This document shows, piece after piece, positions 4,981-21,136 of a stretch of DNA of 21,816 bases. The DNA lies in IMG/VR virus record IMGVR_UViG_3300032284_000210, positions 1-21,816 of that record. One strand, given 5' to 3'. The DNA is from a virus. Under the pieces are notes generated by a model. The model saw nothing but the letters and a program-made list of their open reading frames with translations. It had not been told where the DNA came from and searched no databases. The first letter of the stretch is position 1. Each line of letters starts with the position of its first letter. A program made the translations under genes and the position numbers.

Positions 4981-6492
4981 TTAATATCCTGTTATTTGTG
5001 AACGTCCATCATGTTTAGATTGGCTACGTGCCATTTGATAATCTTCTTCATAATCCTCTTCAGGAGAATTAGCTGATTGTACTTGGTCTACTACAAGACC
5101 TAACCAACTTAATGCATCTACTTGGTCATCATGTCTAGCTTTAGGGAAACGAACCATTTCCTCTTCTAGGTCTGGATACCAAGCAGCAGATTTATCAAAC
5201 TTAACACCACCTGCTTTAAATCTTGCTTGAAAGCTTCTTGCTCTTGATTGCTTATCTTTTGTAGGAGTCATTGGGTAAAGACTCATATACATATCACGAG
5301 CTATTTGTTCTCGTCTTAGGATAGCACCAATTGCTTTCTCAATTGCACCCTTCTCTGTTACAAAGTAATAAGGGCTATATCTTTTCTGTACTGCAAACAT
5401 CTCATCGACAATCTCAAGAGCATCCCATCTGCCCCTGCGAATGTCTACGATATTCATAATACCATCTGAATCAATTCCGCCAATAGCAATGACAGTATAA
5501 TCGCTCCTGTCTCTTGTAGATATAGCGAAATCCACTGCAGCGTAATAAGTAAGTTTCTTTTCTTTAGTAGCGATTGCATCTAATGTAAACTTTGGTATCT
5601 CTATAAAATCAGTACGTTTAAAATATGATGTAGATTCATCAATAGGATAATTCAACATCTCCTGTGCATATACATCAGGCATACCTTGTTTGTTATAGTC
5701 TTCTTTAAGCTTCTTAAAATCAGAAGCAGTATATCTATCTGCCCAAAGTATCTGACTGTAATCTTCTGAGTGAGCTCTATATCGTATAGATCTCCACTCT
5801 ACATTTTTACGTGTTGAATAGGTTCTTAATGGTTCATGTTTAATATAATCTCCATCATACTCAGGAGGCATTAAACGATTTAATAATGAATCTAAATGTA
5901 GAATAGTTCCTACTACTCTAACTACACCATGCTTTGCCATAGAACGTAATAACGCAGCATAAAACCATCTTCTTAGTTTCTCACGTCTATCTTTAGAAGC
6001 AACTTGTTCGTCACCCTCTAAGTCATCACAGATAATTAAATCTGGTCGACGTTGATCCCATTTCAAACCCCGAACTCTTTGTTCGGCACCACGTACTAAA
6101 ACTCTAAACTGTTCACCATCTTGAAACTCTACAATGATATCTGTTTGTGAATCTTTAACCAAAGACTTAACTTGGAAAAGATTGATAAGATCATCATTGT
6201 TAATAAGCTCATCTTTAATATCACTGAGAAAGTTAATAGCTTGGTTCTCAGTATCTGAAACAATTAAAGCAAACTTTCTATCTCTAAATAAAAGAGCAGC
6301 GAGCAAGTAAGCATGAGTGATTGCAGTCGATTTACCGTGGCCACGGGGGGCTGCAATTGCTACCTGTTGATTATCGCTGCAACAGAGATCCCACCACTCC
6401 AAGTGGCACTGCGGAGTAGGGGTTGAACCGTCATATCGTTTTGCTAAACATGCCCCGGCAAAACCGTGGATCATGTCTGGTGTTAACTTCAT
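4981..6492 (-). CDS. Terminase large subunit
   Basis: The 503-aa protein is the packaging motor ATPase and headful or end-cutting nuclease. A Walker A motif APRGHGKS lies at residues 48-55 and a Walker B DLIICDDLE at 151-159. The C-terminal RNase H-like nuclease has its acidic residues in YYAAVDFAISTRDRSDY (D321), TEKGAIEKAIG (E380) and ARHDDQVDALSWL (D455-D459). Length is normal for the family. It is followed at once by the portal gene and preceded by an overlapping HNH-type gene, a common arrangement around terminases. The cutting mode (direct terminal repeats, cos or headful) cannot be told from this window. Confidence 0.95.
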   Translation of the reverse strand: MKLTPDMIHGFAGACLAKRYDGSTPTPQCHLEWWDLCCSDNQQVAIAAPRGHGKSTAITHAYLLAALLFRDRKFALIVSDTENQAINFLSDIKDELINNDDLINLFQVKSLVKDSQTDIIVEFQDGEQFRVLVRGAEQRVRGLKWDQRRPDLIICDDLEGDEQVASKDRREKLRRWFYAALLRSMAKHGVVRVVGTILHLDSLLNRLMPPEYDGDYIKHEPLRTYSTRKNVEWRSIRYRAHSEDYSQILWADRYTASDFKKLKEDYNKQGMPDVYAQEMLNYPIDESTSYFKRTDFIEIPKFTLDAIATKEKKLTYYAAVDFAISTRDRSDYTVIAIGGIDSDGIMNIVDIRRGRWDALEIVDEMFAVQKRYSPYYFVTEKGAIEKAIGAILRREQIARDMYMSLYPMTPTKDKQSRARSFQARFKAGGVKFDKSAAWYPDLEEEMVRFPKARHDDQVDALSWLGLVVDQVQSANSPEEDYEEDYQMARSQSKHDGRSQITGY

Positions 6493-6992: not shown

Positions 6993-7163
6993 TTAGCACT
7001 TAGCCTTTGATTTAGCTTTAGGTGCTTTAGCTTTCTTAGCTACAGACTCACCATCTGATTCATAAGGCATACGACCACCTTTTGGTCCTTTACCCATTGG
7101 TTGCTTACGTGCCTTAACAGTATCGTCTACCATCTTAGCTGTGATCTTTTTAGCTGCTGCCAT
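6993..7163 (-). CDS. Lys-rich microprotein, 56 aa
   Basis: This short gene starts at the ATG at 7163, with GGAG 7 bases upstream, and ends at the TAA at 6993-6995. It encodes 56 aa: MAAAKKITAKMVDDTV, a Gly/Lys segment (QPMGKGPKGGRMPY) and a C-terminal tail of Lys-Ala repeats ending in Cys. It overlaps the end of the small-terminase-like gene by 14 bp and is followed after 4 bp by another basic gene. The tail resembles histone-like or DNA-condensing tails, so DNA binding is a fair guess. No family is recognised. Confidence 0.65.
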   Translation of the reverse strand: MAAAKKITAKMVDDTVKARKQPMGKGPKGGRMPYESDGESVAKKAKAPKAKSKAKC

Positions 7164-7761
7164 TCTCTATCTCCTGTGTTGTTGGTAATTGTTCTACTTC
7201 CTTAGCACTTGCAAACTTCTCAAACTGTTCTGCAAGAAACTTAAGCCTATCATCGACACCTACTTTGTTAGTAATGCTAGTAGGCTCACCGCGTATAAGT
7301 TGTCGTCTGTTGACGAGGTTATTAAATAAATTAGAAAGGACTTTAGTGTCTATAGGCTTTCGAACAAGCTTAGACTTTCTAACATCCCAAAGGTAATCTC
7401 CGTTTGTAAGTCTCTCTTCAATCTCTCCAAGACTCTTATCTAGAACTGTGCTGATTCTTGAACCTAGCTTTTCGTTCTGTTCTACAAACACCTTCTTTTG
7501 AATTTCACTCCACCAGGGCTCTTCTTTCCACTGACGAATGTATTTGACTGGTACTTTTGTTAATCTAGAAACTTCATCTACATCACCATAGACACAGTAC
7601 ATTGTACAAGCATCTATTTTAGTTTGCTGGGGGAACCAGCTAGGATTGTGATGATCTGCTTTCAGTGGTCTCCCACGTCGAGGAGTAGTAGATATTTCTT
7701 GACCATCTAGAAAATACCCACTTGACACTTCTTCAGTTTTCTGTTCTAAATCTTCGCTCAT
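7150..7761 (-). CDS. Probable terminase small subunit (HTH DNA-binding protein)
   Basis: The 203-aa product has a basic AT-hook-like RRGRPLKA near residue 28. A helix-turn-helix follows (about 47-85: KIDACTMYCVYGDVDEVSRLTKVPVKYIRQW), then a helical middle and an acidic C-terminal tail. This is the layout of phage small terminase subunits, which bind the packaging site and hand DNA to the large subunit. It is the first packaging gene of the leftward operon, and the large terminase lies three genes downstream. No Shine-Dalgarno is visible before the ATG. Instead a consensus promoter puts the predicted RNA start at or next to the ATG. The alternative is a transcription factor of the same fold. 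Confidence 0.7.
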   Translation of the reverse strand: MSEDLEQKTEEVSSGYFLDGQEISTTPRRGRPLKADHHNPSWFPQQTKIDACTMYCVYGDVDEVSRLTKVPVKYIRQWKEEPWWSEIQKKVFVEQNEKLGSRISTVLDKSLGEIEERLTNGDYLWDVRKSKLVRKPIDTKVLSNLFNNLVNRRQLIRGEPTSITNKVGVDDRLKFLAEQFEKFASAKEVEQLPTTQEIENGSS

Positions 7762-7796
7762 GCTATAATTATAACATAAGCTTAAAGAAATGTCAA
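7761..7796 (-). promoter_or_regulatory. Consensus sigma-70 promoter for the leftward packaging/head operon
   Basis: Read on the minus strand, TTGACA (7796-7791) and TATAAT (7773-7768) are both perfect consensus hexamers separated by exactly 17 bases. Only six bases (TATAGC) lie between the -10 box and the ATG at 7761, so the expected RNA start falls on or beside the A of that ATG. The operon would thus begin with a leaderless or nearly leaderless message. A perfect match in both boxes at ideal spacing is very unlikely by chance, even in AT-rich DNA. Confidence 0.85.
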
Positions 7797-7813: not shown

Positions 7814-7885
7814 CTACTTATTCATAACGTACATTGTTACTTCAAAGCCAAAACGCATTTCAGTAGCTGCTGGTTTAGTCCACAT
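7814..7885 (-). CDS. pqqA: PqqA-like precursor peptide of pyrroloquinoline quinone (PQQ)
   Basis: An ATG at 7885 with AAAGGAG 6 bases upstream opens a 23-codon gene ending at TAG (7814-7816). The peptide begins MWTKPA and contains GFEVTMY at residues 13-19. This matches the short PqqA of proteobacteria in length, N-terminus and the E-V-T-M-Y core. In PQQ synthesis the radical-SAM enzyme PqqE, with carrier PqqD, cross-links the Glu and Tyr of this core, here E15 and Y19. Those two residues are then cut out and oxidised to PQQ, so one peptide is used per cofactor. No pqqB-E genes are present in the window, so host enzymes would have to process it. It lies between its own candidate promoter and the terminase operon promoter. 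The call rests on a short but highly specific pattern. Confidence 0.88.
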   Translation of the reverse strand: MWTKPAATEMRFGFEVTMYVMNK

Positions 7886-7925
7886 GTTAATCTCCTTTAA
7901 AAGTTAATGTAAAGTTTTCACTCTA

Positions 7926-7960
7926 CCCTAATATTATACTCCAATGAATGAAAACAGTCT
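7926..7960 (-). promoter_or_regulatory. Candidate promoter for the PqqA-like gene, overlapped by an inverted repeat
   Basis: On the minus strand a perfect TATAAT lies at 7938-7933, about 40 bases before the expected leader end and ribosome site of the PqqA-like gene. The -35 region (about 7961-7956) reads AAGACT and is poor. A perfect 7-bp inverted repeat, ATGAAAA (7948-7954) and TTTTCAT (7967-7973), straddles that -35 position. It could be an activator or repressor site, which would fit a promoter with a good -10 but poor -35. The -10 box is seen; regulation is inferred. Confidence 0.4.
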
Positions 7961-8005
7961 TGCGTCTTTTCATGAAAGAAATCTAAGACATGTAATATAT
8001 TTCTC

Positions 8006-8041
8006 TTGACAAGATTCCAATAGTATGTTAAAATCTATTAA
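8006..8041 (+). promoter_or_regulatory. Strong rightward sigma-70 promoter
   Basis: TTGACA at 8006-8011 and TAAAAT at 8029-8034 are separated by 17 bases, giving 6/6 and 5/6 matches to consensus at ideal spacing. Predicted RNA start is near 8041. It faces away from the leftward promoters and is the best candidate for driving the structured region and the early genes that follow. The RNA would begin inside an almost pure A/T block. Confidence 0.75.
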
Positions 8042-8129
8042 TTATTAATTATATTAATTATAATTATATTTATATATTTATAATATAATATAATAATATA
8101 ATAATAATATTATATAATAATATAATAAT
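8034..8129. repeat. Almost pure A/T block, low-complexity TAATAATA-type repeats
   Basis: Apart from a single C near its left end, about 95 bases consist only of A and T. They are arranged as irregular repeats of TAAT, ATAT and TAATAATA. No gene is possible here. Such a tract directly downstream of a strong promoter at the divergence point of the genome would melt very easily and could be a replication origin's unwinding element. It could also be a spacer or a repeat-expansion relic. Composition is seen; an origin role is only inferred. Confidence 0.6.
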
Positions 8130-8139
8130 GTAAAGGGTA

Positions 8140-8251
8140 CCTAGTAAGACGGAAGGACGAAGTCCGACGTCTAAGAATCCGACCTTAGTTAAGACGAGGA
8201 CCGTGATCAATAAGAGCCTCCGTAAGGAGTGTCCGTAACTGTCCTACTAGG
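8140..8251 (+). ncRNA. Compact multibranched RNA domain (candidate structured RNA, unknown class)
   Basis: A long closing stem pairs CCTAGTAAGAC (8140-8150) with GTCCTACTAGG (8241-8251), ten pairs with one A-C mismatch. Within it are three arms. One is GGAC-GAA-GTCC (8155-8165). The second is CGTCTAAG with CTTA and GACG (8168-8175 with 8184-8187 and 8193-8196). The third is GGAC (8198-8201) with GTCC (8231-8234), enclosing CTCC-GTAA-GGAG (8218-8229). The GTAA loop is a GNRA tetraloop on this strand, supporting rightward orientation. GC content here is far above the neighbouring A/T block. No open frame with a ribosome site covers it. I cannot assign an RNA family. Confidence 0.6.
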
Positions 8252-8661
8252 CTTAATAGCTAAATCTTTCATAAATATAGGCTGGTGCCTAACACTAACA
8301 TCTTAGATGTAACAGTTTCCCCCCTTGGGGACCTATAATGGACCTTGTAATCAACCCCCTATGCTACTGGGGATTATCTTACCAACAGGTAAATTGAAGG
8401 TGTATACCACCACCTTAATCAATCAATAACTTAGCTCATAGTAATTCACTCTATAAACCCCTGCAATTAATACCCCTATTTCGAATTTTAAGGCACCTTA
8501 TTCGCACGATGTAATAGTTTTAATACCTGAGTATCAACCTGCCTCTATCACTCTCTTCGGTTGGGTACAATCCCTATCATCCTCGGTGTTTGTAAGTAAC
8601 AAGCCGGCCATTGCATCTGTCCGTCTTGATTACTAACAATCACTACTCGTCATTAGTCCGT

Positions 8662-8684
8662 GAATTACATACTCAATGTAATTC
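8662..8684. repeat. Perfect 9-bp inverted repeat
   Basis: GAATTACAT (8662-8670) and ATGTAATTC (8676-8684) form a perfect stem with a five-base loop, ACTCA. No T-run follows, so it is not an intrinsic terminator. It is one arm of the hairpin-dense non-coding region. Confidence 0.75.
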
Positions 8685-8759
8685 CCTGTCTCCCTCAGGC
8701 CGGGTGGCCAACACACCAAAGTGCTGCACGAGACTTTGTCTCGATTACGAATAGAACCC

Positions 8760-8840
8760 GTCAAGAACAATGTAATCACAATTATTTGATAGCAAACCCA
8801 AACTGCGCTATCAATCAAATAATTAAACATTCTTCTTGAC
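8760..8840. repeat. Long compound hairpin
   Basis: An outer stem pairs GTCAAGAA-c-AATGT (8760-8773) with ACATT-c-TTCTTGAC (8827-8840), 13 pairs with one C-C mismatch. An inner stem pairs ATTATTTGATAGC (8781-8793) with GCTATCA and AAATAAT segments (8807-8823), with a four-base bulge on the 3' side. Loop AAACCCAAACTGC. Twenty-six pairs within 81 bases is the strongest single structure in the non-coding region and ends 70 bp before the first rightward gene. Confidence 0.75.
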
Positions 8841-8909
8841 CGAACCTATTCGTCATGAGTAATTACTCGCACACCACATTCGGTGTATTCTTAAATCAAG
8901 GAGCATAAT

Positions 8910-9062
8910 ATGCAAGACCCTAAACAACTGTATCTTTTCAATAATGTCTGGTGTTATGACCAAGAGCGTGATGATATGGAATCAGATGACTATGAAGAAG
9001 CTTACTTCAATTATCTTCTTGACCATATTGATGAAGAAGTTAATGATGACATTGAATTCTAA
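8910..9062 (+). CDS. Acidic microprotein, 50 aa
   Basis: ATG at 8910 is preceded by AAGGAG, and the frame ends at TAA 9060-9062. The 50-aa product (MQDPKQLYLFNNVWCYDQERDD at the start) becomes very acidic, rich in Asp, Glu and Tyr toward EEVNDDIEF. It is the first gene after the rightward non-coding region and is followed at once by a terminator-like hairpin, so it may be expressed early and strongly. Small acidic early proteins of phages often inhibit or mimic DNA-binding host factors. That role is a guess; no family is recognised. Confidence 0.65.
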   Translation: MQDPKQLYLFNNVWCYDQERDDMESDDYEEAYFNYLLDHIDEEVNDDIEF

Positions 9063-9076
9063 TGTTATCTATCGGC

Positions 9077-9112
9077 AAATCGCCTGTCAGGCTTGAAGGC
9101 GATTTTCCTTCT
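9077..9112 (+). terminator. Intrinsic terminator or attenuator
   Basis: AAATCGCC (9077-9084) and GGCGATTT (9098-9105) form a perfect 8-bp stem followed by TCCTTCTT. The T-run is interrupted by C, so read-through may be partial. It separates the 50-aa gene from the 135-aa gene. Confidence 0.65.
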
Positions 9113-9157
9113 TGTAATTAATTTAATCTATATATAAACTTTTAAGGAGCAGTTCTC

Positions 9158-10858: not shown

Positions 10859-10897
10859 CCCTACGATTGCAGCATTGGCTATGCCTGCAATCTAGGG
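10859..10897. repeat. Long hairpin upstream of the amidoligase gene
   Basis: CCCTA-c-GATTGCAG-CAT (10859-10875) pairs with ATG-c-CTGCAATC-TAGGG (10881-10897), 16 pairs with two single-base bulges and loop TGGCT. There is no T-run after it, so it is not an intrinsic terminator. It ends 26 bases before the amidoligase ATG and could be an RNA processing site or a protein-binding leader. Confidence 0.75.
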
Positions 10898-10923
10898 TAT
10901 GTAATCATTTAGGGAGAAATCAT

Positions 10924-12477
10924 ATGAAACCTTATAGTTTTAGTGAGTTTAATAAAAGGTTTAATATGTTCGGCTGGTCTCATCCAGACATTCGTCAAAC
11001 ATATTGGACTAAAGAAGAAAATGTATATGATTACGAAATAAGAGATAGTGTTCGTAAGACATTTACATTGTCTACTATTTGGTATAAAGATGTTCGTATT
11101 ATACAATTTTATACCAACGATGAAAACAATGGTAACAGACGCTTAAGTGTTTATAACATGTATCGTGAGAATGCATTTGAAACAAGACTTATTACAAGTC
11201 CTAGCTACAGAACAAATGCTAACACTTTAATTGATGCATTGTATTACAAAGCTAATGAACCTAATTATTATAATAAAAATGGTACATTAAAGAAAGGTTT
11301 TTGGGGTGCATTAGCTAGACGCTTACGCTCACAAGCATTGCGTGTTACTTGGAATACTCAACACATGTTACAACAAGCTGTTACTATAGCTTTAAATAGT
11401 ACTTCAACTGAAACAGTTGATCAAGTATTTAATAGTTATAACATACCAGGTTGGTCTTATTACATTGATTCATTAACTAATCAATGGTATGTTGATGGCT
11501 CTCAACGACGAGTAAGACTAGGTAGTACTGAGTGGTTACATATTAATAGATCTACTGATCCAATGTCTTATGGTTATACATTCAATGAACGTAATGACAT
11601 ATGGCTTAGAGCTGATCAGTTCTATCACAGTGGTAATGTATACAATCGTTCTGAAGTAAACATTGTAGAATGTAGACAATGTGGTACTGAAACTGTAGAC
11701 GAACTAACTATTGATGGTGTGTGTCATAACTGTCTTGATGCAAGCTTTAAGATACATAACTATTCTACTCGTGTCGAAGGTATGCTTAAGTTCAAAGCTA
11801 CACGCGTTAAACCTAACACAATCTATCTTGGTTGTGAGCTTGAGTACGAAACAAACAATCGTAATCGTGCACAAATAGGTGTTGGTAAATTAATGCATGG
11901 TCATGCTCTTATGAAGTCTGATGGTTCAATTAGAAATGGCTTTGAAATTGTTACATGTCCTGCAACACTTGACATTCATCTTGAAGTGTTTAAGAAGTTT
12001 TATGATAACATTCCACCTGACTTAAAGATAGAAAAGAATGTTGGTATGCATGTGCATGTTAGTCGTAAGCCATTGAGTCAATTGACTATTGGTAAAATGA
12101 CTGAGTTCCTTAATCGTTTAGATAACAAACAATTCATTGCTCATATAGCTGGTCGCATAGATAATTCCTATGCTCGTATGGAAGATGATCGCACTGTTAC
12201 ATTCCCATTGCGTAATCGCAATGGTGGTAATCGTTACAATGCATTGAATCTAAACAATGAAAAGACAATCGAAGTCAGGTTGTTTGCAACACCAATGAAC
12301 TATAAAGAGTTTGCATCTCGAATACAATTTGTTCAAGCGTTAGTTGACTATTGTAGTCCAGCTCAAAGTAGTTTAGCATTAAAGAAACAAACTCATTACG
12401 AATCATTCATGGGTTGGTTATCTAGTAGAAGACGTATGTTCCCAGAACTTAGCAATCATTTGAAGGAGTATGTATAA
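10924..12477 (+). CDS. Amidoligase (glutamine synthetase / GCS-like fold) with zinc ribbon
   Basis: I place the start at 10924 (GGGAGAAATCAT before ATG), giving 517 aa. A frame opening at 10867 would have no ribosome site and lie in a hairpin. Residues 1-240 are an uncharacterised domain. Cys250, 253, 267 and 270 form a zinc ribbon (CRQC and CHNC). Residues 298-480 carry the amidoligase pattern: GCELEYE (303-309, metal-binding Glu), KSDGSI and FEIVT (331-344), MHVHVS (375-380), and RYNALNLNNEKTIEVRLF (437-454). This family forms amide or isopeptide bonds between a carboxylate and an amine using ATP. The stop overlaps the next gene's start (TAATG), so it is coupled to a glutamine amidotransferase, and an ATP-grasp ligase follows. 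Substrate unknown. Confidence 0.88.
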   Translation: MKPYSFSEFNKRFNMFGWSHPDIRQTYWTKEENVYDYEIRDSVRKTFTLSTIWYKDVRIIQFYTNDENNGNRRLSVYNMYRENAFETRLITSPSYRTNANTLIDALYYKANEPNYYNKNGTLKKGFWGALARRLRSQALRVTWNTQHMLQQAVTIALNSTSTETVDQVFNSYNIPGWSYYIDSLTNQWYVDGSQRRVRLGSTEWLHINRSTDPMSYGYTFNERNDIWLRADQFYHSGNVYNRSEVNIVECRQCGTETVDELTIDGVCHNCLDASFKIHNYSTRVEGMLKFKATRVKPNTIYLGCELEYETNNRNRAQIGVGKLMHGHALMKSDGSIRNGFEIVTCPATLDIHLEVFKKFYDNIPPDLKIEKNVGMHVHVSRKPLSQLTIGKMTEFLNRLDNKQFIAHIAGRIDNSYARMEDDRTVTFPLRNRNGGNRYNALNLNNEKTIEVRLFATPMNYKEFASRIQFVQALVDYCSPAQSSLALKKQTHYESFMGWLSSRRRMFPELSNHLKEYV

Positions 12478-13400
12478 TGTGTATAGCAATCTATAAACCA
12501 GAAGGTAAAGTAATTAGTAAAGATACTTTGCTTGAATGTTACGATGGTAATCCAGATGGTGCAGGCTTTATGTATGCACAGAATAAAAAGTTACATATCG
12601 AGAAAGGTTTCTTTAGCTTTGATTCATTCTATGAATCTTATAAGTTACATGAACAAAAACAAACTGTCATTCACTTTAGGATTAAGACTCATGGTAAAAT
12701 TGATACAACAAATTGTCATCCCTTTGCAGTTAATAGTTCAATTGGCTTTGTCCATAACGGTATTATTACTGGCTTCGGTGACGCTAATCATAGCGATACC
12801 ATTGGATTTAATAACAACATTCTTCAACCGCTTGTACACAAGTGGGGTAACTTGGCTCTGTTCCAAGATCCAATCATAAACTTAATTGAAGGTCGTATTG
12901 GTTACAGCAAGCTTGTGTTCCTTGATAGACATGGCAATCATAAGATTATGAATGAGTCTAAAGGTGTATGGGATGATGGTGTTTGGTATTCTAATACAAG
13001 TTACAAACCTTATGTTGCACCTGTAACTAATTGGAAAGATACTTATAGTTATGGTAGCTGGCGTAAACCTGTGTCTACATACAAAGCATCTGTACCTGCT
13101 GTAGTCAAACGCAAGTATGGTGTTATGGTTGGTGACATGGTTGAGTTACTTGAAGAATATAAAGATGTTTCAACTAACAAAGTATATGAGACTGGTGAAC
13201 TGTTTGAGATTGTTGCAATCAATAAAGATTTTACCGCTGACTTAATGTATGAGAATGAAAAAGGTGATCCAGAGTTTATTTATAATATTCCTTATCATTC
13301 TCTTAACTTTGTAGATGACTTTGAAGATGATACAATCGACCCTGTAGGTGCACCTGAGTATCATAGCTTCTCATCACCTTCATTACTCAAAGGATACTAA
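12477..13400 (+). CDS. Class II (Ntn-type) glutamine amidotransferase with C-terminal SH3-like extension
   Basis: The 307-aa protein starts Met-Cys, so Cys2 becomes the N-terminal nucleophile after Met removal. HFRIKTHG (66-73), NCHPF (79-83), FVHNGII (91-97) and SDT (106-108) line up with the GlmS/PurF-type glutaminase signature (R-x-x-T-H-G, HP, HNG, SDT). Such domains release ammonia from glutamine and pass it to a partner. The C-terminal ~110 residues contain GVMVGDMVELLEEYKDVS and GELFEIVAINKD, a beta-barrel/SH3-like pattern. The partner is presumably the amidoligase, whose stop overlaps this start, or the ATP-grasp ligase that follows by 1 bp. The glutaminase call is firm; the partner is inferred. 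Confidence 0.9.
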   Translation: MCIAIYKPEGKVISKDTLLECYDGNPDGAGFMYAQNKKLHIEKGFFSFDSFYESYKLHEQKQTVIHFRIKTHGKIDTTNCHPFAVNSSIGFVHNGIITGFGDANHSDTIGFNNNILQPLVHKWGNLALFQDPIINLIEGRIGYSKLVFLDRHGNHKIMNESKGVWDDGVWYSNTSYKPYVAPVTNWKDTYSYGSWRKPVSTYKASVPAVVKRKYGVMVGDMVELLEEYKDVSTNKVYETGELFEIVAINKDFTADLMYENEKGDPEFIYNIPYHSLNFVDDFEDDTIDPVGAPEYHSFSSPSLLKGY

Positions 13401-13401
13401 C

Positions 13402-14154
13402 ATGACACTTAAAGTCTTTCCATATAAACCTGCAAGTCTATCAGCTAAACGATTAGCTAAACGACTTGGTGTGTTGCGTGTACGACCTACATACGATGCT
13501 AAACGTCGTGATGTAATTGTTAATTGGGGTGCATCAACACCACCCCAATTCAAGTCTATGTCTCATGATTTAAACAAACATGAAGCTATAGCAATAGCAT
13601 GTGATAAACTTAAAACCTTTACTGAATTAGAATGTAAAGGATTTGAACAAATACCACAATACACTATACTTAAAGATGTGGCTAAGCAGTGGTGTAATGA
13701 AGGTGAAACAATCTATTGTCGAACTAAATTGGGCGGTCACAGTGGTCGTGGTATCGTTATATGCAATGACGCAAACAACATACCTAATGCACCATTGTAT
13801 ACTGTCAAAGCTAACCACAAGCATGAGTATCGTGTTCATGTATTCAAAGGAGAAGTCTTGTATGTCCAACAGAAAAAGAAACGACTTGGGTCAACCATCC
13901 GTAATAGCGGTATTCGCAATCATGGTAACGACTGGGTTTATTGCACACCAACTGATACACCTAGTGAGCTACTACTATCATCGTGCGTTCGGGCAGTTCA
14001 ATTGCTTGGGCTCGATTTTGGTGCTGTTGACATTGGTCATAGGGTTCGTGATAATCGGTTTTTCGTGTTTGAAATCAACACTGCACCAGGATTAATCGGT
14101 ACAACACTTGACAAGTATTCAAAAGCAATATACAATTACTATAGGAGTCTATAA
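13402..14154 (+). CDS. ATP-grasp ligase
   Basis: With the start at 13402 (AAAGGATACTAAC before ATG) the product is 250 aa. The earlier in-frame ATG at 13348 lies inside the previous gene. ATP-grasp features are IYCRTKLGGHSGRGI (104-118; lysine/arginine and glycine-rich loop), HEYRVHVFKGEV (141-152), LGLDFGAVDI (202-211) and FVFEINTAPGL (221-231; metal-binding Glu and Asn). This resembles RimK- and D-Ala-D-Ala-ligase-like members that activate a carboxylate as acyl phosphate and join it to an amine or thiol. With an amidoligase and a glutaminase directly upstream, the three probably act on one pathway. Substrate unknown. Confidence 0.88.
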   Translation: MTLKVFPYKPASLSAKRLAKRLGVLRVRPTYDAKRRDVIVNWGASTPPQFKSMSHDLNKHEAIAIACDKLKTFTELECKGFEQIPQYTILKDVAKQWCNEGETIYCRTKLGGHSGRGIVICNDANNIPNAPLYTVKANHKHEYRVHVFKGEVLYVQQKKKRLGSTIRNSGIRNHGNDWVYCTPTDTPSELLLSSCVRAVQLLGLDFGAVDIGHRVRDNRFFVFEINTAPGLIGTTLDKYSKAIYNYYRSL

Positions 14155-14156
14155 TT

Positions 14157-14468
14157 ATGTTTCAAGTAGGTGATAAAGTTAGTTTTCATGGTATTAACGA
14201 AGACTTTGATTGGGTTCATGATGTTGAAAGATATCTTGATGATATTACTGAGTATGAAATAATGGAAGTAATAAATAATAATACTATTGCTGTTTTAAAT
14301 AGTTCAGGTAATTTAATAAAAGCTGGAATAAATGAATATCAAATTCATACTAAAGAATCTTTAAGACAATTATTAATGTCTAATAACCATAAATATGCAG
14401 CTATTTGTAGCAAAGTTAGACAACTGTATCATAAACAAGACTTTCAATTCAAAGGAATTTATCAATGA
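14157..14468 (+). CDS. SH3-like small protein, 103 aa
   Basis: The 103-aa product starts MFQVGDKVSFHGINEDFDW, continues ITEYEIMEVINNNTIAVLNSSGNLIKAG and ends in a helical, basic tail. The VGDKV and Y-E-I-M-E-V-I-N pattern resembles the C-terminal extension of the amidotransferase upstream (VGDMVEL and GELFEIVAIN), suggesting related SH3/KOW-like barrels. It lies 2 bp after the ATP-grasp gene with GGAG 9-10 bases upstream of ATG, and overlaps the next gene by ATGA. It may be an accessory or scaffold of the ligase cassette. The similarity is by eye only. Confidence 0.6.
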   Translation: MFQVGDKVSFHGINEDFDWVHDVERYLDDITEYEIMEVINNNTIAVLNSSGNLIKAGINEYQIHTKESLRQLLMSNNHKYAAICSKVRQLYHKQDFQFKGIYQ

Positions 14469-14686
14469 GATGCTTAGCCTGTAACAAAGCTTTAAATGAC
14501 TATGAGTCTACACGCAAGTCGGCAACGACTGGCGAGTATCTAGACTTATGTAATGCCTGTTTTCATAATGTAGAACAAGATGTGCAAGCAGTAACTCGAC
14601 CTGACTTATTAGATGAGGAATCATTTGATGATGATGTCGAACTTGATGACTTACAAGGAGACCTATTCGATGGTATCTCGGAATGA
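14465..14686 (+). CDS. Zinc-binding microprotein with acidic tail, 73 aa
   Basis: CLAC (residues 3-6) and CNAC (29-32) form a compact zinc ribbon. It is followed by a strongly acidic, probably disordered tail (residues 49-73, rich in Asp and Glu). The start overlaps the previous stop as ATGA. Short zinc-ribbon plus acidic-tail proteins occur widely in phages; some bind RNA polymerase or nucleic acids. No specific family can be named. It bridges the ligase cassette and the replication block. Confidence 0.65.
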   Translation: MRCLACNKALNDYESTRKSATTGEYLDLCNACFHNVEQDVQAVTRPDLLDEESFDDDVELDDLQGDLFDGISE

Positions 14687-14864
14687 TATAACTAATGATA
14701 AGATACAAACCAAAGGTATTTTATCTAAAGAAGGTGAAGACAATTGGGATCGTATCTTTAAGAAGAAAAAGCTTATTATAGATGATGCTCATAATCTTCA
14801 AATTGAAACTGATGAAGATGATCTTGATGCTAAAAGATTAACTGATGCATTCCCTGGATTATAA
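14670..14864 (+). CDS. Hypothetical protein, 64 aa
   Basis: An AAGGAG at 14655-14660 selects the ATG at 14670 rather than earlier in-frame ATGs that lie inside the zinc-ribbon gene. The 64-aa product (MVSRNDITNDKIQTKGIL at the start) has a basic patch (IFKKKKLIIDD, residues 29-39) and an acidic segment (ETDEDDLDAKR). It is mostly helical and soluble. It overlaps the previous gene by 17 bp and is followed by a GC-rich hairpin before the primase gene. Unknown function. Confidence 0.6.
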   Translation: MVSRNDITNDKIQTKGILSKEGEDNWDRIFKKKKLIIDDAHNLQIETDEDDLDAKRLTDAFPGL

Positions 14865-14872
14865 CGACACAC

Positions 14873-14907
14873 GACTGTCCGGACCCGATCCGCGGGTCTC
14901 GGCAGTC
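14873..14907. repeat. GC-rich hairpin at the head of the replication block
   Basis: GACTG-t-CCG-GACCCG (14873-14887) pairs with CGGGTC-t-CGG-CAGTC (14893-14907), 14 pairs with two single T bulges and loop ATCCG. It is by far the most GC-rich segment in the region. No T-run follows; a GGAGG ribosome site begins four bases later and the primase ATG is at 14922. It may be an RNase site, a stability element or a protein-binding site. Confidence 0.8.
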
Positions 14908-14921
14908 TGTGGAGGATTACT

Positions 14922-15602
14922 ATGTCATTTATAAAACATATGCCTTGTCCTAATTGTGGTAGTAAAGATAATCTTGCTGAGTATGTAGATCATTATTATT
15001 GCTTTGGATGTAGTCATTGGAAAGCTAAGAATGATTTAGAATCTGTACGAAGCAGATTGCAGAGCACCCCTGCGATGCCATCTGGTAAGTTAAATCTTAA
15101 CATAACGGATACCATACCGCAGCAGGCCGTTCAATGGCTGCTGCAATATGGCATTACTAAATCAGATGTAGAAGCATATAAAATTGGGTGGTGTAATAAT
15201 AATCAAGTATTAGTTTTAATTAATACCCCCGACTATTATCAAGGTCGTTCATTCAATGGTGTCAAGTATAAATCCAAGGGCAAAAAGCCCTTGCTTTGGT
15301 ATGGAAATGGTGATATACTAGTGTGTGTCGAAGACGTAATCTCGGCAATTAAGGTTAGCAAAGCTAACAATGTAACTGCAACACCTTTACTAGGTTCAAG
15401 TATGCCCCTAGAACTTACAGAAACTATCATAGAACGATTTAAAACTGTTAAGGTATGGTTGGATAGGGATAAAGCAATTGAAGCTGTTAAAATGGTTAGA
15501 AACTTAAGACAGAAAGGAGTAGATGCTGATGTCATAGTTACAGATAAAGATCCTAAAGAATATACTACAGGAGAAATCAATGAATGGTTGAGAAGCAGAT
15601 AA
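14922..15602 (+). CDS. DNA primase (zinc ribbon plus TOPRIM, T7 gp4-like N-terminal half)
   Basis: The 226-aa product has a zinc ribbon with Cys9, 12, 27 and 30 (CPNCGS and CFGC), a linker, and a TOPRIM-type core. ILVCVEDVISAIKV holds the catalytic Glu (E137), VWLDRDKA holds the metal-binding Asp pair (D181, D183), and VIVTDKDPKEYTTGE is typical of the C-terminal end. It makes RNA primers on the lagging strand. In T7 the primase and helicase are one protein. Here they are separate genes overlapping by 19 bp, so coupled translation is likely. GGAGG precedes the ATG. Confidence 0.88.
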   Translation: MSFIKHMPCPNCGSKDNLAEYVDHYYCFGCSHWKAKNDLESVRSRLQSTPAMPSGKLNLNITDTIPQQAVQWLLQYGITKSDVEAYKIGWCNNNQVLVLINTPDYYQGRSFNGVKYKSKGKKPLLWYGNGDILVCVEDVISAIKVSKANNVTATPLLGSSMPLELTETIIERFKTVKVWLDRDKAIEAVKMVRNLRQKGVDADVIVTDKDPKEYTTGEINEWLRSR

Positions 15603-16822
15603 TAAAGTTGTTCTGTGAAGACAAAGAACTCTTTACAAAGTATTATAAATATGTTAACATTAATTATATTAAGATTAATTATAATAATATATATAAACTA
15701 TTTAATATAATAGATTTATATTATAATAAATATAATAATAATAATATAACTATTAATGAATTAGATATATTTTATAATAGTAATTATCTATTAAAAGATA
15801 ATGAAAGAAAAGAACTAACTACTCTTCTTGAGGAAGTATTTAGTTTAGACATCACTAACAAAGAAGGACTCATTGGTCTATTAGAGGAGCATAGACGACG
15901 CTCTCTTGCAGGCAAGGTCGCTTTGATGGCATTAGATGTCGAGTCAGGTAAGAAATCTACTGAAGATTTACTAGAGTTGTTCAATGACTTTGAACATCAA
16001 GAGGTTGAGTCTGATGAGATTACTCCAATCAATATGAACTTAAAGGAGCTATATGAAACACAAATTCAAACACCAGGTCTACGCTGGCGTCTTAACTGGC
16101 TTAATAAAAGTCTTGGCTCTCTTAGAAAAGGTGACTTCGGGTTTATCTTTGCTCGTCCCGAAACGGGGAAGACTACGTTCTTGGCGAGTGAAATTACTCA
16201 TATGGTCAGCCAAACTGACGGCCATGTGTTGTGGTTTAACAATGAAGAGCAAGGTAATAAAGTCGGAATACGGGTGTTCCAAGCTGCACTCGGACTTAAT
16301 ACAGGAGAACTCTTTAACGATCCTCAAACAAAACAAGAACGTTACGAAAGACTTACAGGTAATAGGATCGTCATCCTTGACTTCGAAGATTCAAGTAGCA
16401 AGTCTAGAATAGAATCAGTACTTAAACATTATAACCCTGCGTTAATTATCTTCGATCAGATAGATAAGATACGTGGATTCAAAGGAGAAAGAAATGATCT
16501 TGAACTTAAAGCGATTTATCAATGGGCTCGTGAGATTGCTAAAACCTACGCCCCAGTCATTGCGGTATCTCAGGCCAGTGGCGAAGCGGAAGGCAAACTA
16601 TTTCTAACTATGGATATGGTTGATGGCTCCAAAACGGCCAAGCAGGGCGAGGCCGATTGGATCCTCGGCATCGGGAAAGAACAAGACAATACAAGTCGTA
16701 CTAGATACTTTAACATCAGTAAGAATAAACTTATAGGTGATACAGATACTAGTCCTGACTTACGTCATGGGTCTACACAAGTGTTAATTAAACCTGAGGT
16801 TGCAAGGTATGAAGATATCTAA
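15584..16822 (+). CDS. DnaB/gp4-like replicative helicase
   Basis: The 412-aa product carries the RecA-like motor of replicative helicases. GDFGFIFARPETGKTTFLA has a Walker A at 190-197 (ARPETGKT, the first Gly replaced by Ala). HVLWFNNEEQGNKVGIRV follows, then Walker B ALIIFDQID near residue 286, VIAVSQASG (motif 3), and a C-terminal NISKNKLIG. The N-terminal 20-70 region is an odd Asn/Tyr/Ile/Lys-rich stretch encoded by almost pure A/T DNA. The enzyme unwinds the fork as a hexamer and pairs with the primase whose gene overlaps the start. GGAGAAATCA precedes the ATG. Confidence 0.9.
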   Translation: MVEKQIIKLFCEDKELFTKYYKYVNINYIKINYNNIYKLFNIIDLYYNKYNNNNITINELDIFYNSNYLLKDNERKELTTLLEEVFSLDITNKEGLIGLLEEHRRRSLAGKVALMALDVESGKKSTEDLLELFNDFEHQEVESDEITPINMNLKELYETQIQTPGLRWRLNWLNKSLGSLRKGDFGFIFARPETGKTTFLASEITHMVSQTDGHVLWFNNEEQGNKVGIRVFQAALGLNTGELFNDPQTKQERYERLTGNRIVILDFEDSSSKSRIESVLKHYNPALIIFDQIDKIRGFKGERNDLELKAIYQWAREIAKTYAPVIAVSQASGEAEGKLFLTMDMVDGSKTAKQGEADWILGIGKEQDNTSRTRYFNISKNKLIGDTDTSPDLRHGSTQVLIKPEVARYEDI

Positions 16823-16952
16823 ATGGACTAGATGGATCCTATTAGATTGGGATGGTACAATCATAAGATGGTTTGACTATCCTGCTACAGGAACTGTTAG
16901 GTACAAAGAACCTAAGATTGATTTAAGTAAATTAGATGAATGTTTATTTTAA
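16809..16952 (+). CDS. Microprotein with a HAD-like DxDGT string, 47 aa
   Basis: A frame of 47 codons starts at ATG 16809 within the last codons of the helicase gene and ends at TAA 16950-16952. The ribosome site is modest (GAGG about 8 bases upstream). The product contains LLDWDGTIIRWFD (residues 11-23), which matches the first motif of HAD phosphatases (DxDGT). The rest of that fold is absent, so it may be a coincidence or a relic. It ends immediately before a good AAGGAG for the next gene. Confidence 0.5.
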   Translation: MKISKWTRWILLDWDGTIIRWFDYPATGTVRYKEPKIDLSKLDECLF

Positions 16953-16961
16953 GGAGAACGT

Positions 16962-17123
16962 ATGAAGATAGCAGAAGCAAGTGTATTAGATGTATTAGCA
17001 ATTAACCCACACATCTCTGACAATGATGCAGAGGACCTCTTGACTTTAGGTGATCCTAATGATACAATAGAAGAAGGACTACTTAAATTATACGGGGATA
17101 CAGGTGGAGAATGCGCAGCTTAA
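16962..17123 (+). CDS. Acidic microprotein, 53 aa
   Basis: ATG at 16962 follows AAGGAG with good spacing. The 53-aa product starts MKIAEASVLDVLAINPHISD and is acidic and helical, ending GDTGGECAA. Its 3' end overlaps the polymerase start by 13 bp, and the GGAG that serves the polymerase lies inside it. Its place between helicase and polymerase suggests a replication accessory, but no motif supports this. Confidence 0.6.
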   Translation: MKIAEASVLDVLAINPHISDNDAEDLLTLGDPNDTIEEGLLKLYGDTGGECAA

Positions 17124-18283
17124 TCTTAGATGTTGAAACAACAATAAGCAGTAAGGGTAATCCATTTGATGAAAGGAATAAACTTTGTTATGTTGGACTC
17201 TATAATACTGACGGGCATCTTCTATATGATATTGATTATAGCGGAAGTCCTAACCGCGACAGACTTGACTCTATACAAAGAATCATTGACAGTCACGATA
17301 TTATTGTTGGCTTTAACCTCAAGTTTGACTTGCATTGGATAAGAAAATATGGAATCAATATTGTGGGTAAGCGTGTTTGGGATTGTCAGTTGGTTCATTT
17401 TATACTTACGGGCCAACAAAATCCCTATCCAAGTCTCGATGGTGTTTCTAACTATTATGATTTGGGTAGTAAGCTTGATGTTGTTGCTAGTGAGTATTGG
17501 AGCAACGGTGTGGATACCCCGGCAATCCCTAGAGATGTTCTTGAGGAATATCTAATACAAGATTTGCGTTTGACGCAACAAGTATATGATAAACAGATGG
17601 AAGAGTTTGCGGGATTAGCAAAAACAACACAACGACTTATTAGTTTACACAATCAAGATCTACTAGTCTTAGAGGAGATGGAATACAATGGCATTATATT
17701 TGACGAAGAGGAATGTAATAGACTCGGTAAAGAAATGGAAGAACAAGTTAAGAAGCTTGATGATCTCTTGTTTGAATACCATAATCTGCCTGAGTTTAAT
17801 CCCTCTAGTACAGAGCATGTATCTACTCTTCTCTATGGCGGAGTGGTTACTGTGCGTCGTAAGCAAGTCGTCGGAGTGTTCAAGACGGGCGCAAGAGCGG
17901 GCCAAGAAAAAGAAAGATGGTTTGAACATGAGATAAAGTTTGATAGACTTATCACACCACTTAAAGGATCTGAACTTGAGAAAGAAGGTTACTATTCTAT
18001 TGACGACCAAACTCTTAAGTCTCTTAAACCTAGAACTAAATATGGTAAAGAACTTATTGAACTTATCTTAACACGAGCAGTATTAGTTAAAAGATTAACA
18101 GCTTACTATCAAGGTCTAGTTGAACTACGAACTAAGATGAACTGGCCTCACGGTAAGCTACATGGTATTCTCAATCAATGTGTTGCTAAAACAGGAAGGT
18201 TATCATCAACCAAGCCTAACTTACAGAACTTTGATGGAGAGATTAAACAATTATTTGGGAGTAGGTATGCTACTGCAAGCTGA
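17111..18283 (+). CDS. Family A DNA polymerase, N-terminal piece (3'-5' exonuclease and thumb)
   Basis: The 390-aa product opens with LILDVETT (Exo I, D7 and E9), IVGFNLKFDLHW (Exo II, D73) and YLIQDLRLT (Exo III, Y147 and D151), the proofreading exonuclease. A helical thumb follows, and then GRLSSTKPNLQN near residue 362, which normally precedes motif A. It stops at TGA 18281-18283 after LFGSRYATAS. The remaining palm and fingers are encoded in the +1 frame from 18267. The join is at the usual position, so together they would make one Pol I-like enzyme of about 630 aa. GGAG lies just before the ATG at 17111. Either a split gene or a frameshift. Confidence 0.9.
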   Translation: MRSLILDVETTISSKGNPFDERNKLCYVGLYNTDGHLLYDIDYSGSPNRDRLDSIQRIIDSHDIIVGFNLKFDLHWIRKYGINIVGKRVWDCQLVHFILTGQQNPYPSLDGVSNYYDLGSKLDVVASEYWSNGVDTPAIPRDVLEEYLIQDLRLTQQVYDKQMEEFAGLAKTTQRLISLHNQDLLVLEEMEYNGIIFDEEECNRLGKEMEEQVKKLDDLLFEYHNLPEFNPSSTEHVSTLLYGGVVTVRRKQVVGVFKTGARAGQEKERWFEHEIKFDRLITPLKGSELEKEGYYSIDDQTLKSLKPRTKYGKELIELILTRAVLVKRLTAYYQGLVELRTKMNWPHGKLHGILNQCVAKTGRLSSTKPNLQNFDGEIKQLFGSRYATAS

Positions 18284-18986
18284 CGCTAAAGCATTAGAGT
18301 GGGTCTGTGCTACTTACCTATCTCAAGATGAAACGGCTATAAAGGAGATATGGGATGGGACAGACCAGCACAGCGATAACCAACTTCGCTTTGGGCTTCC
18401 TTCTAGGCTTATTGCTAAGACTTTTGTCTTTCGACTTATCTATGGAGGATCTGCTTACTCTTACGCTCATGATGTTAACTTTACTAGCGTTTCTACTAGT
18501 GAATCCTTTTGGCAAGGAATCATAGATGAGTTCTATAAAAAGTATAATGGACTCGCTAAATGGCATAAGCAAGTTGTCGACACGGCAATGCGGGATCGCC
18601 AACTAACTATGCCTACAGGAAGGATATACAAGTATGAACCTGAAGTAAAGTATGGAAAAGTTAAGTGGCCTCGTACTAAGATATTGAACTACCCTGTTCA
18701 AGGTCTTGGGGCTGACTTAATGGCAATAGCAAGAGTATCTTTATCTAATAGGATAAAAGATATGAAGGGTATTAAACTAGTTAACACTGTTCATGATTCG
18801 ATTATACTTGACTATGATAATAAAGTATGCGATAATAATAGTATAGTTAGTTTAGTTGATAAATGTTTTACAGATGTTCCGACTAACTTTAAGAAACTGT
18901 TTGGAACAAACTTTAACCTTCCCATGAGGGTCGAGTGTCAGATAGGACCTAACTGGGGTAACATGGAGATAGTGAATGTTAATTAA
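18267..18986 (+). CDS. Family A DNA polymerase, C-terminal piece (palm and fingers)
   Basis: A start at ATG 18267 is supported by GGAG at 18258-18261 with ideal five-base spacing. A longer open frame from 18162 has no ribosome site. The 239-aa product begins MLLQADAKALEW (motif A, D6 and E11). It then has RLIAKTFVFRLIYGG (motif B, R47, K51, Y59), NYPVQGLGAD, and VNTVHDSIIL (motif C, H176-D177-S178, Ser replacing the common Glu). F55 sits at the position of E. coli Pol I Phe762, and Phe or Tyr there is usual in virulent phages. Both catalytic Asp residues are on this piece, the exonuclease on the other. It overlaps the other by 17 bp and the SSB-like gene by 11 bp. Confidence 0.88.
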   Translation: MLLQADAKALEWVCATYLSQDETAIKEIWDGTDQHSDNQLRFGLPSRLIAKTFVFRLIYGGSAYSYAHDVNFTSVSTSESFWQGIIDEFYKKYNGLAKWHKQVVDTAMRDRQLTMPTGRIYKYEPEVKYGKVKWPRTKILNYPVQGLGADLMAIARVSLSNRIKDMKGIKLVNTVHDSIILDYDNKVCDNNSIVSLVDKCFTDVPTNFKKLFGTNFNLPMRVECQIGPNWGNMEIVNVN

Positions 18987-19497
18987 TATTATAGATGTAG
19001 GTCAACCTAATACACACGCTGCTAAGAATGGTAGATCATACCAATCAATTGAAGTAACGTATAAGGCTGAGAATGGTCAAGTAGCTAACAAGAAGTTAAT
19101 GTCTTTTAGTAATCCAAGTGTGTTCAATCACATTAAAGGTTTAGCTAAGGGTGCTGTTATTAATGTAACTACAACTAAAGATGCTGCTGGTTATTGGCAG
19201 TGGACTGGTATTGGAGGAGATAACGAAGTGACTGAATCTACACAAGCTAAACCTGCTGCAACTGGTGGTGGTCGAGTAACTGGTAGTAACTATGAGACTA
19301 AAGAAGAACGTGCCGCCAGGCAAATCTATATCATTCGTCAGAGCAGTATTTCCTCTGCGGTTGAATTAGTAGCTGCAACTTCTACAGAGCCTACAACAGT
19401 AGACAATGTTATTAACATTGCTAAGAAGTTTGAAGCTTATGTATTAGCTAAAGATGTTGCTCCTGAGATTAATGATGAGGACGACATTCCAGTATAA
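18976..19497 (+). CDS. Single-stranded DNA-binding protein (T7 gp2.5/SSB-like)
   Basis: The 173-aa product has an N-terminal beta-rich domain (MLINIIDVGQPNTHAAKNGRS, then SIEVTYKAENGQVANKK and GAVINVTTTKDAAGYWQWTGI), as in OB-fold proteins. A Gly/Thr/Ala linker and helical segment follow, and then the acidic tail NDEDDIPV. A DD-x-P-hydrophobic end is the hallmark of SSB tails that dock replication enzymes. Its place directly after the polymerase and before the exonuclease matches replication blocks of T7-like phages. It starts within the polymerase's last codons and ends at TAATG with the next gene. The OB fold is inferred from pattern. Confidence 0.78.
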   Translation: MLINIIDVGQPNTHAAKNGRSYQSIEVTYKAENGQVANKKLMSFSNPSVFNHIKGLAKGAVINVTTTKDAAGYWQWTGIGGDNEVTESTQAKPAATGGGRVTGSNYETKEERAARQIYIIRQSSISSAVELVAATSTEPTTVDNVINIAKKFEAYVLAKDVAPEINDEDDIPV

Positions 19498-20222
19498 TGA
19501 AAGCACTTATTGATGCTGACATAGTAGCGTATAGGGTTGCCTGTACGCTAGGTGAAGATGATGCTGCAGACTATGCGTATGCTAGAACAGAAGATCTAAT
19601 AGATCACATTCTAGTTAATACCGAAGCTACTGAGTATCATCTTTATCTAACTGGTAAGGATAACTATAGGTATACTATTTATCCTGAATATAAAGCTCAT
19701 AGACCTAAAGAGAAACCTTTCTGGTTAGAAAAGATTAGGCAGTATCTTATCGCTAACTTTAATGCTGAAGTGATTAATGGTCAAGAGGCTGACGATGCTT
19801 TAGGTATTGCTCAGACTACTGATACAATCATTTGCTCTATTGATAAAGACTTATTAATGATTCCTGGAATGCATTATAACTTTGTTAAAGATGAGTTCAT
19901 TGAAGTAGATCATTACAATGCTATGATTCATTTTTATATGCAATGTTTAGTAGGAGACCGTGCTGATAACATTAAAGGTATCCCTGGAATTGGGGTCAAG
20001 AAAGCAGAACGTATCTTAGAGAATTGTTATACTGAACAACAGTTCTTTAATGCTGTACGTGAAGCTTATAGTAATGATGAAGAATTATTAATGAATGGTC
20101 GAGTCCTTTGGATAAGACGTAAACCTAACGAAGATTGGAAGGATATATTTAATGCCCTCGTTCAAAAGCAAGCTGGAGGAACAAGTGTGGGCTCAACTGA
20201 AGAAGCAGTATCCCTCAGTTAA
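19497..20222 (+). CDS. 5'-3' exonuclease (FEN/T7 gp6-like)
   Basis: The 241-aa product shows the FEN/PIN nuclease signature: LIDADIVAYR (D6, D8), YPEYKAHRPKEKP (63-73), GQEADDALG (E97, D99, D100), CSIDKDLLMIPG (D116, D118), and LVGDRADNIKGIPGIGVKKA (151-170), the helix-three-turn-helix that grips DNA. It removes RNA primers and trims DNA ends; T7-like phages also use it for host DNA breakdown and recombination. The start overlaps the SSB-like stop as TAATG, and the last 71 bp overlap the endonuclease gene in another frame. Confidence 0.92.
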   Translation: MKALIDADIVAYRVACTLGEDDAADYAYARTEDLIDHILVNTEATEYHLYLTGKDNYRYTIYPEYKAHRPKEKPFWLEKIRQYLIANFNAEVINGQEADDALGIAQTTDTIICSIDKDLLMIPGMHYNFVKDEFIEVDHYNAMIHFYMQCLVGDRADNIKGIPGIGVKKAERILENCYTEQQFFNAVREAYSNDEELLMNGRVLWIRRKPNEDWKDIFNALVQKQAGGTSVGSTEEAVSLS

Positions 20223-20535
20223 GTACGAACCTGATAAGTATAAGTACATCCAACCTGAAAAGGAACGAACATATATTCCTGACTTCAAGACTGGTAAACG
20301 TAAGTTATACTTAGAGGCTAAAGGTAAATTGGATTTAGATACAAGACAGAAGATGGTATGGTTTAGAGAATCCAATCCTGAAGTAACCGTAGTCTTCTTA
20401 TTTATGAATCCAGATAATAAGATTAACAAACGTAGTAAAACAACCTATGCCAGATGGGCTGAAGATAATAAGTTCTTATGGCTAGACTTTAGAAAGGATT
20501 GGTTAAATGATTATAACAAACTGTGTACAAAATAA
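20152..20535 (+). CDS. Endonuclease I / Holliday-junction resolvase (T7 gp3-like)
   Basis: The 127-aa product matches T7 endonuclease I in spacing of its catalytic residues: E9 (SKLEEQVW), D44 (YIPDF), E55 and K57 (LEAKG). T7 has E20, D55, E65 and K67. RQKMVWFRESNPEVTVVFLF and TTYARWAEDNKFLW match the downstream part of that family. It resolves branched DNA before packaging and degrades host DNA. The gene begins inside the exonuclease gene, 71 bp before its stop, and ends inside the next small gene. This is the typical partner order in T7-like genomes. Confidence 0.9.
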   Translation: MPSFKSKLEEQVWAQLKKQYPSVKYEPDKYKYIQPEKERTYIPDFKTGKRKLYLEAKGKLDLDTRQKMVWFRESNPEVTVVFLFMNPDNKINKRSKTTYARWAEDNKFLWLDFRKDWLNDYNKLCTK

Positions 20536-20954: not shown

Positions 20955-21136
20955 GCAAACTACTATCATCATTTTACTGGGTCAAGATTCGATACGAGAA
21001 AGAAATTCGTGTCAAATGCCCTAATGAAAACGTAGCACGTGATCACGCTATGGAGTTATTTATTAATGGTTTGCCTGGTATTAGTGCTGATGATCTTAGG
21101 GTTATTCATGTTGAACAAAGTGAGGATAGAAAATGA
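20951..21136 (+). CDS. Hypothetical protein, 61 aa
   Basis: The 61-aa product (MSKLLSSFYWVKIRYEKEIRV, then NENVARDHAMELFINGLPG and VIHVEQSEDRK) looks like a small alpha/beta domain with beta-alpha-beta order and no membrane segment. The ATG overlaps the stop of the preceding 19-codon frame. Its end overlaps the start of the oxygenase gene as ATGA. No ribosome site is obvious, so coupling is likely. Family unknown. Confidence 0.55.
   Translation: MSKLLSSFYWVKIRYEKEIRVKCPNENVARDHAMELFINGLPGISADDLRVIHVEQSEDRK

Follow-up and report, generated by a model that had tools for sequence, protein, structure and literature searches.

A PqqA peptide identical to that of Methylophilaceae methylotrophs encoded in a phage genome, and a palindrome common to viral and host pqqA upstream regions

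In fresh and coastal waters, methylotrophs form an important sink for one-carbon compounds, methanol among them, and PQQ-dependent methanol dehydrogenase is their entry reaction. The DNA analyzed here (the window) is the whole of a 21.8-kb viral record (21,816 nucleotides), in which a stretch of 23 codons reads as pqqA, the gene for the PQQ precursor peptide. Does a viral genome encode authentic PqqA, and what would a phage gain from bringing such a small gene into a methylotroph?

The initial annotation had described a 23-codon PqqA gene with a ribosome site, and we found the reading frame, the AAAGGAG motif, and the residues E15 and Y19 all present, on the minus strand, which it had not specified. 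The frame runs from an ATG at 7885-7883 through 23 codons to a TAG at 7816-7814.

7814..7885 (stop included), minus strand: pqqA, encoding the 23-aa PQQ precursor peptide MWTKPAATEMRFGFEVTMYVMNK
7892..7898, minus strand: Shine-Dalgarno sequence AAAGGAG of pqqA, recognized by sequence, with a 6-nt spacer to the ATG and conserved in relatives

E15 and Y19, whose atoms become PQQ, stand in the E-x-x-x-Y spacing. The alignment to PqqA families by which this identification could be checked came out in its favor, as the peptide matched the curated HMMs Pfam PF08042 (42.4 bits, cut-off 21.1, E = 6.4e-11) and TIGR02107 (40.4 bits, cut-off 20, E = 1.8e-10), exceeding both cut-offs about twofold. A DNA pattern for W..P, 27 nt, and E-V/I-T-x-Y had a single occurrence in the window, and none of 100 dinucleotide shuffles contained it. 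PHROGs held no family for the gene, and a search of Rfam over pqqA returned no RNA family, only one lncRNA match far under the gathering score. These sequence comparisons confirm that 7814-7885 encodes authentic PqqA; the phage is of lytic type.

The location of the gene is a phage genome rather than a host fragment, with pqqA surrounded by genes for TerL, portal, primase, helicase, and polymerase; the record as a whole carries a terminase, a portal, a primase, a DnaB-like helicase, a family A polymerase, and nucleases.

4981..6492, minus strand: terminase large subunit (TerL; phrog_38, 1e-84), the query for finding relatives
7150..7761, minus strand: terminase-small-subunit-like (terS-like) gene, so called by position, directly downstream of pqqA and first of the leftward packaging and structural operon
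10867..20535, plus strand: amidoligase, GATase, and ATP-grasp genes and the replication module, host evidence independent of PqqA

The gene at 7150..7761 had no PHROG match. The amidoligase, GATase, and replication genes are syntenic with those of the OM43 phage MEP402, the first two preceding the replication module in matching order, and a search of 50,697 phage records gave MEP401 and MEP402 as the best amidoligase matches. Identity to MEP402 is 51% for GATase, 62% for the helicase, 55-65% for the polymerase, and 71% for the endonuclease, but only 25% for TerL. When we compared the peptide with candidate hosts, as the initial annotation had proposed, it proved identical, letter for letter, to chromosomal PqqA of Methylophilaceae, namely the orphan copies of KB13, LSUCC0401, Ca. 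Methylopumilus, and Methylophilus methylotrophus, and nearly all matches to the pattern WTKP[AST]ATEM in a genome collection fell in this family. Peptide identity and MEP402 synteny, the latter independent of PqqA, therefore point to a Methylophilaceae methylotroph as the predicted host, with replication genes closest to those of OM43 (Methylophilales) phages. The gene and its family, the host-identical peptide, the phage context, and the host clade are all readings of sequence. We rejected the window family as a temperate phage of this host, as TerL gave only distant partial matches in 187 Methylophilaceae genomes.

Among the IMG/VR relatives found with the window TerL, 19 of 46 carry pqqA, as do all 10 of those of at least 33 kb. 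An earlier reading, that most TerL relatives are without pqqA, was discarded as an artefact of looking near TerL alone, since every record of at least 33 kb is positive, mostly elsewhere in the genome. One relative of 50.8 kb (G152) has two pqqA genes at separate positions (loci L297 and L298). The gene occupies about five genomic positions among these relatives, and the positions group by clade on the TerL tree:

window clade, L306, L307, L287: upstream of the terS-like gene
L298, L300, L301, L304, L305: at the late operon's 3' end, where it faces ribonucleotide reductase
L299, L303: on the opposite strand, between the genes for ATP-grasp and primase
L297: next to ATP-grasp
L289: following the capsid gene

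The unit common to these positions is larger than the reading frame and can be delimited in the window as follows.

7814..7960 (approximate extent), minus strand: pqqA cassette of promoter, leader, and ORF, a homologous block of ~150 nt that lies elsewhere in relatives and has an empty-site counterpart
7933..7938, minus strand: TATAAT -10-like element of the cassette, without a good -35, in the same slot in relatives and also in cassettes at other positions
7768..7796, minus strand: TTGACA-17-TATAAT, a consensus sigma-70 promoter that separates pqqA from the gene following it and would drive the late-direction operon, not pqqA

The block of -10, leader, Shine-Dalgarno sequence, and ORF in the window is 81-89% identical over 141-151 nt to the cassettes of L301, L305, L303, and L299, all of which sit at other genomic positions, and the homology stops at the pqqA stop codon or just past it. 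At the empty site, relatives with pqqA elsewhere have a conserved AT-rich block followed directly by the terS promoter. The cassette may have changed place inside phage genomes or may have been acquired several times. The gene is not indispensable, because MW202796, a complete circular relative with a TerL 75% identical to that of the window, lacks it. As an observation apart, the -10 of the terS promoter (7761-7796 region) ends 6 nt before the terS-like ATG, and the mRNA would therefore be leaderless or nearly so; relatives of the window clade show it too.

Beyond these relatives, pattern scans of IMG/VR returned at least 325 stretches, of which 324 translate to short PqqA ORFs, giving at least 324 viral loci; the count is a lower bound, because two of the four sub-scans gave minimum counts only. 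When 125 of the pqqA loci were joined by shared proteins, they fell into 27 components, nine with at least 4 members (fragments can inflate this count), and Venkman, MEP402, Melnitz, and the window belong to different components. Very large viral contigs of 356 kb (L020) and 163 kb (L114) also carry pqqA. Apart from matches labelled as phage of Acinetobacter, a tblastn search of annotated phage records (E ≤ 10) found PqqA only in the genomes of nine methylophage isolates (Venkman, P19250A, MEP301, MEP401, MEP402, and four Melnitz) and, with 100% identity, in MW202481, a circular metagenomic phage. The same records came up with a second query, of the RLGFE..MYF type. HMO-2011-type phages, considered as a route to more methylophage records (MEP431-434), led to none among the matches listed. 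Matches labelled "Acinetobacter phage" were rejected: the contig CAKLQF020000010.1 (L125, "Acinetobacter phage MD-2021a") is apparently bacterial DNA filed as phage, because it contains pqqBCDE and ppk. The expectation that gene finders miss so small a gene was borne out, as five isolate methylophage records have no feature over pqqA; in the four Melnitz records and MW202481 it is covered by a "hypothetical protein" only, antisense to pqqA in Melnitz EXVC044M and MW202481. The papers on the MEP, Venkman, and Melnitz phages do not mention pqqA.

Upstream of host and viral pqqA alike we found a palindrome, CTMATGA-NNN-TCATKAG. With an operator matrix trained on host sites alone, 68% of the upstream regions of 236 non-redundant viral pqqA genes scored above 6 bits, compared to 3.4% of shuffles and 1.3% of downstream regions, and 42% scored above 10 bits, compared to 0.7% and 0. 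Sites cluster ~85-120 nt upstream in viruses and lie 114-142 nt upstream in hosts, and the isolates Melnitz, P19250A, and MEP301 score 18.8, 12.1, and 10.5 bits. The exact core TMATGATTTTCATKA has 20 copies in 12 host genomes, against 1 for the reversed pattern, and 19 of the 20 lie upstream of pqqA or pqqB (17 of them ~90-150 nt before pqqA and 2 before pqqB). Since it stands upstream of host pqqB as well as pqqA, the operator is tied to PQQ synthesis, and its presence before Methylophilus pqqB suggests that PQQ genes form a regulon whose regulator has yet to be identified. Binding of a protein at the palindrome is an inference, and a literature search found no description of the site. The wide recurrence of viral pqqA, the homology of cassettes at different positions, and the operator common to host and phage are shown by sequence. 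The two copies before pqqB are in the Methylophilus loci L529 and L535, and Methylophilus sp. 42 (L539) has one exact copy away from both genes.

In the window itself, the palindrome has decayed.

7960..7976, minus strand: slot of the PQQ operator, now decayed (TTCATGAAAAGACGCAA), in which the left half remains and the right half is lost; it aligns with the operator of L301 and L305

The window pqqA accordingly fails to match CTMATGA-NNN-TCATKAG, and the host-trained matrix does not pick this slot. The best matrix match in the window (9.3 bits, 176 nt upstream) was discounted because it lies inside an AT-rich repeat.

We propose that a lytic phage of a Methylophilaceae methylotroph brings in a self-contained pqqA cassette of ~150 bp, whose peptide would be translated in infection, cross-linked between E15 and Y19 by host PqqE/PqqD, and processed to PQQ by host PqqB/PqqC and proteases. 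By topping up a precursor that is consumed, the phage could keep PQQ-dependent methanol dehydrogenase, the cell's main entry for carbon and energy, running while it replicates. We consider it probable, in support of the inference drawn in the initial annotation, that phage pqqA sustains host PQQ synthesis and methanol oxidation in this way; expression, modification by host enzymes, the effect on PQQ, and a fitness benefit are all inferred. Cross-linking by PqqE/PqqD and conversion to PQQ are likely, an inference from identity with host PqqA. The initial annotation saw no pqqB-E genes in view, which holds for the annotated genes of the window, and neither PqqE nor a PQQ alcohol/methanol dehydrogenase (TIGR03075) scored above cut-off in any of 46 related or pqqA-bearing viral records; these phages would therefore supply the consumable precursor only. 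In Methylovorus sp. MP688, a member of this host family, PqqA availability is reported to be rate-determining for PQQ (Ge et al. 2015, cited in PMC11317620). Hosts also amplify the gene on their own account: we found pqqA in 120 of 120 Methylophilaceae genomes examined, mostly in 2-8 copies and up to 12, and multiple host pqqA genes beside single-copy pqqB-G were noted earlier (PMC4109929). Against the proposal, hosts already hold several copies, so that the need for a phage gene during infection is unproven; the operator of the window is decayed, MW202796 does without the gene, and in M. extorquens AM1 the pqqA of the operon was reported dispensable (orphan copies were not examined there).

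Could the reading frame be spurious, or a host gene carried along to no purpose? Apart from a length of just 23 codons, nothing favors a chance ORF, and the HMM E-values, the absence of the pattern from shuffles, the host-identical peptide, and the conserved Shine-Dalgarno sequence and promoter refute it on sequence evidence, so that we regard it as virtually ruled out. A passenger gene taken from the host and functionless in the phage would be short and cheap to carry, and pqqA is absent from MW202796; even so, viral pqqA is, by comparison of its DNA versions, under purifying selection. The mean pN/pS across 121 distinct DNA versions is 0.205, with codon position 3 the most variable, and W2, P5, R11, G13, F14, E15, T17, and Y19 are invariant in 136 of 136 viral copies. 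Part of this is built in, since the viral search patterns fix W, P, E, V/I, T, and Y (mostly also T and K) and thereby lower pN; R11, G13, and F14 were free to vary. Together with the Shine-Dalgarno sequence, the pN/pS value favors, on sequence evidence alone, a short gene that is expressed and constrained as coding DNA. The window peptide is encoded at 33 viral loci by 27 DNA versions and at 85 host loci by 59, with no DNA version common to both, and within the window clade ORF differences are synonymous, L252 excepted. A functionless passenger is also hard to reconcile with the near-universal presence of pqqA, at changing positions, in the phage family of the window and with its occurrence in no fewer than nine groups of viral contigs that have several members, and we consider it very unlikely.

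A working peptide might still serve something other than PQQ supply. It could be made, and perhaps modified, for lanthanide handling, for instance, or to occupy PqqE/PqqD and throttle the host: PMC11317620 proposes that PqqA could belong to an alternative lanthanide uptake system, orphan pqqA copies are regulated by lanthanide supply (PMC11317620), and the phages bring pqqA alone, without the enzymes. A decoy would be expected to lose its reactive residues, however, whereas the entire peptide is kept host-identical, beyond E15 and Y19, and the host operator precedes pqqB as well as pqqA; another purpose thus seems unlikely, though it keeps some weight. Alternatively, the DNA rather than the peptide could matter, with replicated operator copies titrating the host regulator and shifting host PQQ gene expression. 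That 68% of the non-redundant viral pqqA genes have a host-type operator before them would fit such a sponge, but a sponge has no need for a constrained ORF, and some phages, that of the window included, kept the ORF but lost the operator, which leaves this idea scarcely tenable.

Phage pqqA itself is not a first, because it was reported in 2020 in the Lake Baikal methylophage population VP_266 and proposed there as an auxiliary metabolic gene (PMC7678222). Like the window, VP_266 is a viral contig with a predicted Methylophilaceae host that encodes PqqA (PMC7678222), but it is T4-like and also encodes methanol dehydrogenase, whereas the window has a lone pqqA in an MEP402-like phage. A 2026 reservoir study lists viral pqqA/D/E. 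MEP401 and MEP402 share with the window the order of the replication module and a pqqA placed immediately before the first leftward gene; they differ in TerL, and their own pqqA is unannotated and unmentioned in PMC10580990. On the host side, Methylophilaceae PqqA (e.g., of beta proteobacterium KB13, Ca. Methylopumilus, and Methylophilus methylotrophus) has the same 23 residues, encoded by orphan genes away from pqqB-E and often with a similar upstream operator, but the window gene, with a -10 and leader of phage type, is at least 3 synonymous DNA changes away from the nearest host copy.

The phage auxiliary metabolic genes psbA, pmoC, and amoC are host-like genes for bottlenecks in energy metabolism that recur in unrelated phages. 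By analogy, phage pqqA may belong with them, except that its product is a stoichiometrically consumed cofactor-precursor peptide and not an enzyme subunit; it would rank among the smallest phage metabolic genes, supplying substrate rather than enzyme. In the literature searched, we found no report of its recurrence at 324 or more viral loci and in methylophage isolates, of cassette behavior, or of an operator common to phage and host. It is an evenly balanced possibility that unrelated phage lineages of methylotrophs, as a guild, have repeatedly acquired or moved a ~150-bp cassette wired into the host PQQ regulon by its operator, with precursor dosage as a common lever on methanol oxidation and with the operator marking an undescribed pqqA/pqqB regulon in Methylophilaceae. 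The isolates Venkman, Melnitz, MEP301, MEP401, and MEP402 and their hosts open this idea to direct testing, and the palindrome gives a way toward the regulator of Methylophilaceae PQQ synthesis, which is so far unknown. A 23-codon gene skipped by annotation appears common in methylophage genomes.

Three other regions of the window merit mention. The plus-strand cluster at 10867-14154 (amidoligase, glutamine amidotransferase, and ATP-grasp, the first two as in MEP401/402) may possibly serve peptide or cell-wall modification. At 21133-21816, also on the plus strand, the PHROGs label "ferrochelatase" looks wrong, and several phage homologues are annotated as 2OG-Fe(II) oxygenase. Finally, 7996-9157, ~1.1 kb at the divergence point without convincing genes, is extremely AT-rich at 8000-8100 (about 10% G+C) and partly conserved (77-88%) in relatives with or without an adjoining pqqA; it is possibly a replication origin or a regulatory RNA region.
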